64,000 nt of DNA. Origin: Synechococcus sp. HK05 (GTDB lineage: Bacteria; Cyanobacteriota; Cyanobacteriia; PCC-6307; Cyanobiaceae). The notes beneath the pieces are model-generated. The model did not search any database. It was not told the origin of the DNA and saw only the letters and a program-made list of their open reading frames with translations. Shown one piece after another: positions 37,087 to 40,970 of this stretch. How positions within the stretch are numbered: position 1 is the stretch's first letter; each line of letters starts with the position of its first letter. Both the position numbers and the translations under genes were made by a program. The DNA lies in the NCBI RefSeq assembly GCF_019104765.1, contig NZ_JAHRXJ010000011.1, positions 496,001-560,000 on the forward strand, given 5' to 3'.

Positions 37087-37945
37087 ACCAACGGGCCAGG
37101 GCCGACACATCCAAGTCGCCGTGGCCGCTGGCGAGCAGGGCATCCTCCATGGCGGCCACCTGTTCGGTGACGGGCAACTCCAGGTGCTGGGCCGCGGCGG
37201 CCTCCAGGGCAATGCCTAGATCCTTGCGGTGCAGCGCCAACTTGAACCCCAGCGGGTAGTGGTCGTTGATCATCTGGGTGCTGCGGTGCTCCAGGGCCCA
37301 GGAGCCGGCGGCGCCGCCCTTGAGGGCCTCCACCACCTGGTGGCGATCGAGGCCGAGCCGTTCCGCGAGCTGCAGGGCTTCGGCCACGGCGGCGTAACTG
37401 CCCGCCACCAGCACCTGGTTCACCGCCTTGGCTTCCTGGCCCGATCCCACGGGGCCGAAGTGGGTGATGCGGCCGCCGATCACCTCCAGCAGCGGTCGGG
37501 CCCGCTCCAGATGTTGGCTGTCACCGCCCACCAGCACCGAGAGCGTGCCGGCCTTGGCGCCTTCGGTGCCGCCGGTCACGGGGGCGTCGATGTAGCCCAC
37601 CTGCCGCTCGGCCAGAGCGGCCGCCAGGCGGCGGCTGGTGGCCGGGCCGATGGTGGAGCAATCGATCACCAGGCAGCCGGGGCGCAAGCCGGCCACAGCG
37701 CCTGCGGGATCGGGCGCGCCCAGCAACACTGCTTCGGCGGCGGCGTCATCACTCACGCAGATGAGCAGCGCATCGGCCTGGCGGGCCGCAGCTGCGGGGC
37801 TGGGGGCTACCGCCGCTCCAGCGGCCTGCAGCGGAGCGCAGCGCCCTGGGGTGCGGTTGTGCACGGTGAGGCCGTAGCCCGCCTTCAGCAGGTTGAGGGC
37901 CATCGGTGTGCCGATGGCGCCTAAGCCGATCCAGGCCAGGTTCAT
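37076..37945 (-). CDS. 3-hydroxyisobutyrate dehydrogenase-family NAD(P)-dependent oxidoreductase
   Basis: 289 residues from ATG 37945. The nucleotide fold is GLGAIGTPMALNLLKAGYGLTVHNRT, the substrate loop is DAPVTGGTEGAKAGTLSVLVGG, and the catalytic lysine is in GSGQEAKAVNQVLVAG. The family reduces or oxidises beta-hydroxyacids; cyanobacterial members are often assigned to glyoxylate/succinic semialdehyde reduction, but substrate cannot be told here. Its start overlaps the EF-hand gene stop by 4 bases (ATGA), so the two are cotranslated. Confidence 0.9.
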   Translation of the reverse strand: MNLAWIGLGAIGTPMALNLLKAGYGLTVHNRTPGRCAPLQAAGAAVAPSPAAAARQADALLICVSDDAAAEAVLLGAPDPAGAVAGLRPGCLVIDCSTIGPATSRRLAAALAERQVGYIDAPVTGGTEGAKAGTLSVLVGGDSQHLERARPLLEVIGGRITHFGPVGSGQEAKAVNQVLVAGSYAAVAEALQLAERLGLDRHQVVEALKGGAAGSWALEHRSTQMINDHYPLGFKLALHRKDLGIALEAAAAQHLELPVTEQVAAMEDALLASGHGDLDVSALARWFRS

Positions 37946-38406
37946 GGGGGGGATGTGGAGGAGGAGGCGCGCCGCCGTTCGGCCAGGCCCTGCAGTTCTG
38001 CCGGATCCACGCGGCCATCGCCATTGCGATCGGCTTGGCCGAAATGGCGTCTCAGCCACGCGAACGCCTCCGCTTCGCGCCGATCAATCACGCCATCGGC
38101 GTTGCGGTCGGCCTGCTGAAAGAAGCGCACGGCCCGGGAGGGATCGTTGCGTGTGAGGTCGTCCGGCCCGAGATAGCCGCGCTGGCGGCTGTCGAGGCGA
38201 TCGAAATGGCGCTCGAGATAGCGCTGGCCCTGCACCTCTTGCCGCTGAAGGCGTTGGTCGTTGTTGCGATCGAGCCGCTCAAACAGCAGCCGCATGCGTT
38301 GTTGGTAGCTCTGCTGCTCCGCCGTTGTCTGTGCCCATGCAGCAGAGGTCAGGCCCAGGCTGATCGCCAGGGCCAGGGGCCCACATCGCTGCAGCATCCG
38401 GCGCAT
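37942..38406 (-). CDS. exported EF-hand calcium-binding protein
   Basis: 154 residues with a signal peptide (LALAISLGLTSAAWAQ). There are four EF-hand-like loops: DRNNDQRLQRQE, DSRQRGYLGPDD (degenerate), DRNADGVIDRRE and DRNGDGRVDPAE. Three keep the D-x-N/D-x-D/N-G pattern. It should bind calcium in the periplasm. The ATGA overlap with the downstream dehydrogenase is odd because that enzyme is cytosolic. It is divergent from the response regulator gene by 128 bases. Confidence 0.85.
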   Translation of the reverse strand: MRRMLQRCGPLALAISLGLTSAAWAQTTAEQQSYQQRMRLLFERLDRNNDQRLQRQEVQGQRYLERHFDRLDSRQRGYLGPDDLTRNDPSRAVRFFQQADRNADGVIDRREAEAFAWLRRHFGQADRNGDGRVDPAELQGLAERRRASSSTSPP

Positions 38407-38457
38407 GTCCCAAGGCTATGGAGCGAGGGCCAGCGTCAGCCGCTCCCGGCACCACCA

Positions 38458-38471
38458 AGCTGTGACCAGAT
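38458..38471 (+). promoter_or_regulatory. 14-base element upstream of the response regulator
   Basis: AGCTGTGACCAGAT ends 63 bases before the response regulator ATG. Its exact reverse complement lies at 40503-40516, ending 70 bases before the first small exported protein gene downstream of the kinase. Equal distance from two starts suggests a shared operator for this two-component system. Confidence 0.45.
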
Positions 38472-38534
38472 CTGTCTGAGGCGGCCTCGGCGCCCGGATC
38501 TCCATACAGTCTGACCAGGCCCTGGACCCCCTCG

Positions 38535-39275
38535 ATGGCTGTCGCGTCCCGCACGGCATCAGCGCGCATCTGGGTGGTGGACGACGACCCCGAGCAGCGC
38601 CGGCTCCTCGGCACCTACCTCACCGATCAGGGCTACGACGTGCGCTGCCTCAGCAGCGGCGAGCAGCTGATGGCCCGCCTGGAGGGGCAGCGTCCCGATC
38701 TGGTGGTGCTGGATGTGATGCTCCCCGGCGACGATGGCCTCACCCTGCTGCGCCGTTTGCGCGATGGCGGCGACGATCTGCCGGTGGTGATGCTCACCGC
38801 CCGCGGCGATGGGGTGGATCGGATCATCGGCCTGGAGCAGGGCGCCGACGATTACCTCGGCAAACCCTTCCTGCCGCGGGAGCTCACCGCCCGCATTGAA
38901 GCGGTGCTGCGCCGCCGGGTGGCCCTGCCGGCTGGAACGCCGCTGGCGGAAGGTCAGCTGGTGGAGTTCGGCGACAACCGCCTTGACCTGGCGGCCCGCA
39001 GCCTGGAGCGCGGTGGAGTGCCGGTGGTGATCACCAGCGGTGAGTTCAGCCTGCTCTCGGCCTTTGTGCAGCACCCCCACAGGCCGCTGTCGCGCGAGCG
39101 GCTGATCGAGCTGGCCCGCGGTCCGGGCTCCGACACCGACAGCCGCAGCATGGATGTGCAGGTGTCGCGCGTGCGCAAGTTGGTGGAACCTGATCCCACG
39201 CGCCCTCGCTACCTGCAAACGGTGTGGGGTTACGGCTACGTGTTTGTGCCCGATGGCCAGCCCCGCAGCCGCTAA
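38535..39275 (+). CDS. OmpR-family response regulator
   Basis: 246 residues. The receiver has the acidic pair in VVDDDPEQ, the phosphoacceptor in LVVLDVMLPGDDG, the switch Thr in VMLTARG and the lysine in DYLGKPF. The C-terminal winged helix is of OmpR type (VITSGEFSLLSAFVQHPHRPLSRERLIELARG, RSMDVQVSRVRKLVEPDPTRPRYLQTVWGYGYVF). Its last 23 bases overlap the kinase gene, so they form a cognate pair. It is not RpaA/RpaB by gene context; those are usually unlinked to a kinase. Confidence 0.94.
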   Translation: MAVASRTASARIWVVDDDPEQRRLLGTYLTDQGYDVRCLSSGEQLMARLEGQRPDLVVLDVMLPGDDGLTLLRRLRDGGDDLPVVMLTARGDGVDRIIGLEQGADDYLGKPFLPRELTARIEAVLRRRVALPAGTPLAEGQLVEFGDNRLDLAARSLERGGVPVVITSGEFSLLSAFVQHPHRPLSRERLIELARGPGSDTDSRSMDVQVSRVRKLVEPDPTRPRYLQTVWGYGYVFVPDGQPRSR

Positions 39276-40539
39276 GTACGCGCTGGTGGGGGCCGGCGTG
39301 TCGGCCCTCAGCCTGGGTCTGCTGCAGACGCTGTTGGCCCAGCGGTTGGAGCGGGCTCAGATCATCCAGCTCGGCCCTGAGGTGGCCTTCAACCTGCGGC
39401 TCGGTGAGTTAGCCCTCGATCGCCTGCCCCCGGCAGCCCTCTCGCGCTTGAGCGGTTTGCCGCTGCGGGTGGGGGCTAATCCGCCCCTGAGCCGCGATAG
39501 CCGCCTGCAGCGTCAGGCCCGGCAGCTGCAGCAGGAGCTGTGCCGGGAGATCACCCCTTGCCCCCCGGTGTTGCCGGCTGGTGGCGAACGCCCCGGGGTG
39601 TGGGTGGAGCTGCTCTCTCCCCTCGAGCCGGTGTGGCTGTTCACGCCCCTGGATGCCTCACGCCGCGGTGCCCCCGATCCGCTGCTGTTGGCTTTGGCGC
39701 TGTTGGCGGGCAGCATTTCCAGCTCGCTGCTCTACCTCTGGTGGGAAGTGCAGCGGCCGCTGCAACAGCTCGAGCAGGCCCTGGCCCAGGTGGGCAACAG
39801 CGAGTCGTCTGCGGCACCATTGCCCGCTGCCGGCAGCGGAGCCGTGCGGCGGCTCACGGCCCGCTTCAAGGCGATGGTGCAGCGCCTGGCGGCCAATGAC
39901 CGCGAGCGCTCCACCATGCTCGCTGGGATTGCCCACGATCTGAAAAGCCCGCTCACCCGGTTGCGGCTGCGGCTGGCGGGCCATGCCGAGCAGCAGCGAG
40001 CCGAGGCCGATCTCGATGCGCTCGAGCGGATCACAGCCCAGTTTCTGCTGTTTGCCGGCGGTGGTGATGCGGAGCCCGCCGTGGCGTTGCCGCTGGATCA
40101 GTGGTTGGCGGAGCTGAGTGCCGCGCTCGAACCGGATCAGCTCAGCCTCGATCTCGAGCCCCTCCAGGCTTGCGTGCAACCCACCGCCCTGGGTCGCGCC
40201 GTCGGCAACCTGATCGACAACGCCTTGAGCCATGGCCGGCCGCCGCTGCGACTCGTGCTGCGGCGTGATGGCCAGGACGGTTTCCGCATGGAGGTGTGGG
40301 ATCAGGGCGAGGGCATCAGCCCTGAGGCCTGGCCCCAGGCCCTGCAGCCCTTCCTGCGGCTCGACCGCGCGCGGGGCGGCAGCGGTCATTGCGGCCTGGG
40401 CCTGGCGATTGCAGCGCGGGTGGCGGCCAGCCATGGGGGGCAGCTCACCTGCTTGCGCTCCTCGGAGGGGTTTGCGGTGGTGCTGCAGGCCCGCTCAGTC
40501 GCATCTGGTCACAGCTGTGTCGGCTCCGGAAACCCCTGA
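39253..40539 (+). CDS. EnvZ-like sensor histidine kinase
   Basis: 428 residues from ATG 39253. Two membrane segments (YALVGAGVSALSLGLLQTLLA at ~8-28 and LLLALALLAGSISSSLLYLWWEV at ~142-164) enclose a ~110-residue periplasmic domain with a cysteine pair (ELCREITPCPP). A HAMP-like linker leads to the H-box GIAHDLKSPLTRLRLRLA, the N-box GRAVGNLIDNALSHG, and G-boxes VWDQGEGIS and GHCGLGLAIAARVA. The stimulus is unknown; envelope stress is my inference from the small exported proteins downstream. Confidence 0.93.
   Translation: MASPAAAKYALVGAGVSALSLGLLQTLLAQRLERAQIIQLGPEVAFNLRLGELALDRLPPAALSRLSGLPLRVGANPPLSRDSRLQRQARQLQQELCREITPCPPVLPAGGERPGVWVELLSPLEPVWLFTPLDASRRGAPDPLLLALALLAGSISSSLLYLWWEVQRPLQQLEQALAQVGNSESSAAPLPAAGSGAVRRLTARFKAMVQRLAANDRERSTMLAGIAHDLKSPLTRLRLRLAGHAEQQRAEADLDALERITAQFLLFAGGGDAEPAVALPLDQWLAELSAALEPDQLSLDLEPLQACVQPTALGRAVGNLIDNALSHGRPPLRLVLRRDGQDGFRMEVWDQGEGISPEAWPQALQPFLRLDRARGGSGHCGLGLAIAARVAASHGGQLTCLRSSEGFAVVLQARSVASGHSCVGSGNP
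40503..40516 (-). promoter_or_regulatory. inverted copy of the 14-base element, upstream of the small exported protein genes
   Basis: ATCTGGTCACAGCT on the plus strand is the exact reverse complement of 38458-38471. It lies inside the last codons of the kinase gene, 70 bases before ATG 40587, at nearly the same distance as the other copy has from the response regulator start. Confidence 0.45.
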
Positions 40540-40586
40540 AGCCAGTGTTGCTCCGCAGGATGTGGGGGCTTCCTTCTGAGCCCTCC

Positions 40587-40970
40587 ATGGCCCATCGCCT
40601 TCTTCGCTCTCGCCTTGCCCTCGCCCTCAGCGGGGCGTTGCTGCTGAGCGCCGGTTCCGCCTTCAGCAAGCCTCCGAAAGCCGGTGCCGGCGGCCCGATG
40701 GTGGATGCCCTCAGCCGTCTCACCCCGGCGCAGCGCAGCGAGTACATCCAGGGCCTGCGCGGCATCGAGCAAGCCCGCAGCAGTGAGCGCCTGCAGCAGC
40801 TCGATCAGGCGCAGACCTGCCTCGGCCAAGCCGCCAACCCCTCCGCCGTGAAGAGCTGTTGGCAGAGCTTCGCCAGTGCTTCGCAGAAGACGCGCGCTGA
40901 GCAGGCTCAACAGCAGCAGGCCCTGGCGGATCGCCTTGGTCTGCCTACCGGCGGCAAGAAAAAGCAGTGA
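40587..40970 (+). CDS. small exported helical protein, first of a tandem pair (Spy/CpxP-like layout)
   Basis: 127 residues from ATG 40587, with a signal peptide (RLALALSGALLLSAGSAFS). The mature part is nearly all helical: LSRLTPAQRSEYIQGLRGIEQARSSERLQQLDQAQTCLGQ, then a second cysteine (VKSCWQSF), a Gln-rich helix and a Lys-rich end. LTPAQ echoes the LTxxQ motif of Spy/CpxP periplasmic chaperones, though I cannot claim homology. It aligns with the next gene, with both cysteines conserved. It follows the kinase by 47 bases and is probably under the same regulator. Confidence 0.72.
   Translation: MAHRLLRSRLALALSGALLLSAGSAFSKPPKAGAGGPMVDALSRLTPAQRSEYIQGLRGIEQARSSERLQQLDQAQTCLGQAANPSAVKSCWQSFASASQKTRAEQAQQQQALADRLGLPTGGKKKQ

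Follow-up and report, generated by a model that had tools for sequence, protein, structure and literature searches.

The layout of the CpxRA-CpxP system, in which a regulator-kinase operon stands beside a divergent gene for an exported protein under one operator, recurs at the Synechococcus locus described here. The kinase of this locus resembles solved CpxA, but CpxA ranks below EnvZ among its relatives, the operator differs, the divergent gene encodes an EF-hand protein, and the likeness of another exported protein at the locus, E1, to ZraP/CnrX is not significant. OmpR/EnvZ of Escherichia coli and its relatives provides the closest NCBIfam models for both proteins; the kinase core is nearest to solved EnvZ, the DNA-binding domain of the regulator matches solved OmpR, and tandem 10-bp direct half-sites lie upstream of the promoter in both systems. 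Unlike OmpR/EnvZ, however, both proteins here score below the equivalog cut-offs of their best models (regulator against OmpR, PRK09468, 311.6 bits with a cut-off of 331; kinase against EnvZ, PRK09467, 140.9 bits with a cut-off of 415), the operator is built on GTCRCA, and the predicted targets are EF-hand, E-type and DUF2808 proteins, with no porin among the assigned profile matches. The regulator belongs to the OmpR/PhoB family by its receiver and Trans_reg_C domains (104.1 bits against a Pfam cut-off of 30.2, and 72 against 26.2), and the kinase, when searched against the named genome collection, returned four close relatives, of which two carry the name Vulcanococcus, plus distant kinases.

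The periplasmic sensor domain of the kinase, modelled at pLDDT 84, has a third counterpart, as periplasmic chains of RisS from the Burkholderia RisS/RisR system made up its top seven Foldseek matches (probability 1.00, E 1.2e-3 to 2.4e-2, Z 7.9, against 5.1 for the next unrelated entry), but sequence identity to RisS is 11-20%, and signal and targets need not be common to the two. Two cysteines six residues apart are invariant in all 17 aligned sensor domains and could possibly form a disulfide or a metal site. In the passages of one study that deal with a predicted osmoregulation network, SYNW0807-0808 of Synechococcus WH8102 were assigned to EnvZ/OmpR (PMC2874817), and going by that mapping they are the probable orthologues of our regulator-kinase pair; the same passages give no operator or regulon. 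Neither SYNW0807 nor its CC9311 homologue was significantly changed by two DNA-damaging agents, according to the relevant part of PMC3744912, and three further reports describe OmpR-family regulators as binding tandem direct half-sites (PMC4117788, PMC3973317, PMC3264566). Our literature search, which covered few subscription journals, returned no description of the operator, the regulon or the targets of this system.

The window analysed here, 64 kb of the Synechococcus sp. HK05 genome, contains the genes for the EF-hand protein (minus strand), the regulator, the EnvZ-like kinase, E1 and E2, followed by pgk (minus strand), and the gene order around the regulator-kinase pair is kept in relatives (Table 1). 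E2 is probably co-transcribed with E1. Each divergent gene has a CTCCATA block in its -10 region (38500-38511 and 38411-38421), the two blocks being in inverted orientation.

Table 1. Annotated genes and predicted regulatory features of the locus, in window coordinates.
Feature	Position	Strand	Basis
Exported EF-hand protein gene, 154 aa	37942-38406 with stop (37945-38406 without)	-	ORF, EF-hand Pfam matches, conserved beside regulator
Predicted -10 of EF-hand gene, TAGCCT	38413-38418	-	48 bp from GTCACAG, 6 nt before ATG
Predicted operator 1, CAGACAGATCTGGTCACAGCTT, holds first 14-mer	38457-38478	-	GTCACAG at 38460-38466; profile E 5.6e-7
Predicted -10 of regulator-kinase operon, TACAGT	38505-38510	+	Within conserved CTCCATACAGTC
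OmpR-family response regulator, 246 aa	38535-39275	+	Pfam Response_reg and Trans_reg_C; best NCBIfam model OmpR
EnvZ-like sensor histidine kinase	39253-40539	+	HATPase_c; best NCBIfam model EnvZ; best solved relative EnvZ
Predicted operator 2, CAGTCGCATCTGGTCACAGCTG, holds second 14-mer	40496-40517	+	GTCACAG at 40508-40514; kinase 3' end; profile E 1.9e-6
Predicted -10 of E1, CAGGAT, weak consensus match	40556-40561	+	48 bp from GTCACAG; spacing kept in 14 loci
E1, small exported protein, 127 aa, predicted site 2 target	40587-40970	+	
E2, small exported E1 paralogue, 121 aa	40982-41347	+	Second own-genome match of E1

A sequence-only reading of this DNA had pointed to a 14-base element, AGCTGTGACCAGAT, at 38458-38471 (plus strand), with its exact reverse complement at 40503-40516, and proposed that the two copies are a shared operator of the OmpR-type regulator. 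We located both copies exactly and found no other in the window; the distances given, 63 bases from site 1 to the regulator ATG and 70 bases from site 2 to the E1 ATG, hold, as does the placement of the second copy in the 3' end of the kinase ORF. Such a match between two given upstream regions had been called very unlikely by chance, with some random 14-base matches expected in the window as a whole. We counted 99 14-mers that also occur in the window as their reverse complement, which makes a bare match weak evidence, and we rejected the counting of bare 14-mers as proof. Allowing up to three mismatches, the window holds 9 matches, against 5.4 +/- 2.3 in shuffled sequence. Conservation of the element at both positions in relatives settles that the match is not due to chance. 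A third exact copy exists elsewhere in the 2.53 Mb genome, at C9:159775, and has 20 consecutive bases in common with site 2. The single one-mismatch copy, at C4:217769, was not counted as a site, as it has no upstream half-site and is absent from the profile matches described below. A reversed-pattern control of the genome searches was composition-biased and was not used for significance.

The 14-mer is the core of a directional element of about 22 bp, CAGTCGCATCTGGTCACAGCT, in which GTCRCA half-sites are spaced by 10 bp and another GTCACA copy often lies 22 bp downstream; a -10 hexamer comes about 48 bp from GTCACAG or one helical turn further. When the GTCACA columns of a 34-site alignment were compared as direct repeats, -10 and +22 were the best of the direct offsets, the former being the arrangement of an OmpR-type operator, with tandem direct half-sites about 10 bp apart. 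A consensus scan of the region found no -35 promoter element. We examined 42 kinase loci (L092-L121 and L182-L193), and the core TGTGACCAGAT or a close variant occupies both places, with its orientations unchanged, both within the genus and in other genera, drifting in relatives to forms such as GGATCCGGTCATGG. Conservation in orthologous loci was the check that the sequence-only reading had put forward, and its outcome upholds the shared operator. What the data do not support is the description of the two copies as opposite in orientation with respect to the regulator operon: the element has a direction of its own, site 1 points at the EF-hand gene with a -10 spacing equal to that on the E1 side of site 2, and the orientation relative to the target is therefore the same in both cases.

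In the direction of the element, the gene ahead of site 1 is the divergent EF-hand gene and not the regulator. A -10 hexamer of the form TA[AG]C[CT]T lies 48 bp from the GTCACAG start in all 15 loci L092-L106, and at 47-49 bp in all 12 further loci of the same genus; overall, the distance is 47-49 bp in 27 of 42 loci and 58-59 bp, one helical turn further, in 11 of 42, the remaining four consisting of three unmatched by the -10 search pattern and one without a regulator match. On this side the site is 88.5% identical and the -10 region 88.9%, against 40.4% for the spacer between them, and one locus (L099) carries a second full copy of the element 22 bp downstream. These sequences are best read as making the EF-hand gene, in place of the regulator operon, the predicted target of site 1. 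The EF-hand ATG follows the predicted -10 by only 6 nt in 13 of the 15 loci L092-L106 (here 38398-38418, minus strand), and because of this short distance the EF-hand mRNA is probably leaderless.

Site 2 faces E1, and a -10-like hexamer lies 48 bp after its GTCACAG, reading CAGGAT here and CAGCCT, CAGTCT, CACAGT and others in relatives. Among 14 loci, site 2 falls within the kinase ORF in 6 and beyond the kinase stop codon in 8, with the spacing to the hexamer kept; coding constraint thus does not explain it. Several relatives (L095, L096, L097) have a second full copy 22 bp downstream, and E-type genes on contigs that lack the kinase keep the site in three genomes (G018, G096, G137). Members of the E1 family are small and exported and share two invariant cysteines. 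E1 was modelled as a helical hairpin (pLDDT 90); a fold search gave only weak helical matches (ZraP, E 1.5, Z 8.0; CnrX lower) to a shape that is common among proteins, and a comparison with the sequences of solved structures gave no useful match.

The third genomic copy lies 56 bp before a gene for an exported DUF2808 protein (PF10989; 88.4 bits against a Pfam cut-off of 25.3) and points at it, although the -10 of this gene is not at the 48-bp spacing. All 25 same-genus genomes have the gene and 17 have the site upstream of it, comprising 17 of 19 kinase-positive and none of 6 kinase-negative genomes (Fisher 1.6e-4; here and below, the test treats genomes as independent, though they are related). 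At family level, among genomes having the gene, the site is found in 23 of 71 with the kinase and 1 of 63 without it (Fisher 8.5e-7). Two genomes (G064 and G162) have the kinase and no DUF2808 site match, and one (G131) has the DUF2808 site and no kinase match. The sequence-only reading, which spoke of control of two effectors, agrees with ours on E1-E2 as predicted targets of site 2 and missed both the EF-hand gene and this third target.

The genome-wide motif search that the same reading had suggested was run with a profile (R1) built from sequence and trained on same-genus sites, so that matches within the genus arise partly by construction; G018, G096, G137 and the DUF2808 sites beyond the window's genus fall outside the training set. 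The genome of the window has exactly three matches at E<=0.5, namely site 1, site 2 and the DUF2808 copy. Within the genus, all 19 genomes with the kinase have a match at E<=0.02 and none of the 6 without it does; these six are incomplete assemblies (62-86%), and a regulator search turned up nothing above 62% identity in them. Among 151 genomes of the family, the kinase is present in 41 of the 44 with a profile match, compared with 73 of 151 overall (Fisher 1.5e-13), and 32 of the 73 kinase-positive genomes have no profile match. Three genomes have a match without the kinase: in G098 the regulator sits at a contig end and the match resembles coding sequence, in G107 the match is weak and the kinase was not found, and G131 is a real exception. 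The 80 matches comprise 25 upstream of DUF2808 genes, 16 upstream of E-type genes, 16 between the EF-hand and regulator genes, 6 at the 3' end of the kinase and 17 without an assignment. Matches in genus g29 (L231, L232, L235, L237) resemble conserved coding sequence and were assigned to no target. In two genomes (G150 and G151) a further match precedes another small exported-looking ORF (L205 near 2470, L206 near 2353), a possible fourth target. Computation shows where the sites lie, which way they face, how they are spaced and conserved, and that they occur together with the system, this last association being partly confounded by linkage and descent.

Taken together, we consider it very probable that both sites serve as operators for the OmpR/EnvZ-like system whose genes lie between them, a system that would activate a regulon of exported proteins; kinase co-occurrence and the 10-bp direct-repeat form both support the sequence-only attribution to the OmpR-type regulator. 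A different division of labor, with site 1 mainly autoregulating the regulator-kinase operon and E1-E2 controlled through site 2, was the earlier proposal and now appears unlikely. It has in its favor that site 1 is 63 bp before the regulator and that the regulator has a conserved block of its own containing TACAGT, which lies 36 bp from TGACC in 11 loci (L092-L100, L119, L120). However, the direction of site 1 fits the EF-hand gene and not the regulator, the TACAGT distance shifts to 79-92 bp in most other loci (79-81 or 90-92), and the block is missing altogether in L101-L106, where site 1 and the EF-hand spacing are retained. An operator shared by the divergent genes is possible, and with it autoregulation through site 1, but because the TACAGT spacing varies or is absent this arrangement is less conserved than that of the EF-hand gene. 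In the genera with the 79-92 bp gap (L107-L118), the interval from site 1 to the regulator -10 contains a second conserved block, approximately GTCACCTTTGG, which is perhaps an extra autoregulation site.

Other readings question what binds the sites and with what effect. OmpR-family regulators can both activate and repress, so the same regulator might act here as a repressor, which we think improbable: the sites lie upstream of the -10 hexamers, there is no consensus -35, and the two spacings, 48 and 58-59 bp, differ by one helical turn, as expected for activation. That the sites belong to a different regulator, such as a CRP-type protein, is very unlikely. The core does contain TGTGA, a CRP half-site, but cyanobacterial CRP sites, in the part of the literature consulted, read TGTGAN6TCACA (PMC2633013), whereas the second half here is GCGAC (GCGAC or CTGTC across sites) rather than TCACA, leaving the CRP palindrome incomplete; moreover, the element repeats directly and tracks the kinase across genomes, and we rejected the CRP reading on these grounds. 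Least credible of all is that the match arose by chance or reflects conserved coding sequence at the kinase 3' end. The abundance of inverted 14-mer pairs in the window and the position of site 2 within the kinase ORF in this genome would allow it, but conservation at both places across genera, the loci in which site 2 lies outside that ORF and the third copy in front of an unrelated gene already refute it.

With an operator of the OmpR/EnvZ-like system as the preferred reading, we infer regulator binding, activation rather than repression, and the nature of the signal. The regulator would bind tandem GTCRCA half-sites 10 bp apart, often together with the copy 22 bp downstream, and once bound would activate promoters whose -10 lies about 48 bp away or one helical turn more. 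Its targets would be the EF-hand protein through site 1, E1-E2 through site 2 and the unlinked DUF2808 protein through the third copy. The sensor domain of the kinase probably reads an envelope condition, and a reasonable, though unproven, candidate would be pH or osmolarity.

These results give a well-defined candidate regulon for the OmpR/EnvZ-like system of this cyanobacterial family, with exact operator bases and -10 positions predicted, and tie three exported-protein families of unknown role, DUF2808 included, to one signal. They also illustrate how a conserved operator can stand behind a 14-mer match seemingly at chance level, and that the direction and spacing of an element are better guides to its target than proximity to an operon of interest. 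We tentatively suggest, as an idea that we hold at somewhat less than even confidence, that the locus represents a previously undescribed envelope-surveillance regulon of picocyanobacteria, in which an EnvZ/RisS-type sensor governs a periplasmic, Ca2+-binding EF-hand protein together with ZraP/CnrX-like hairpin and DUF2808 proteins through one promoter architecture. If this is true, the regulon would do the job of Cpx/OmpR in cells that have few two-component systems, and the DUF2808 family, whose role is unknown, would gain a place in envelope homeostasis.
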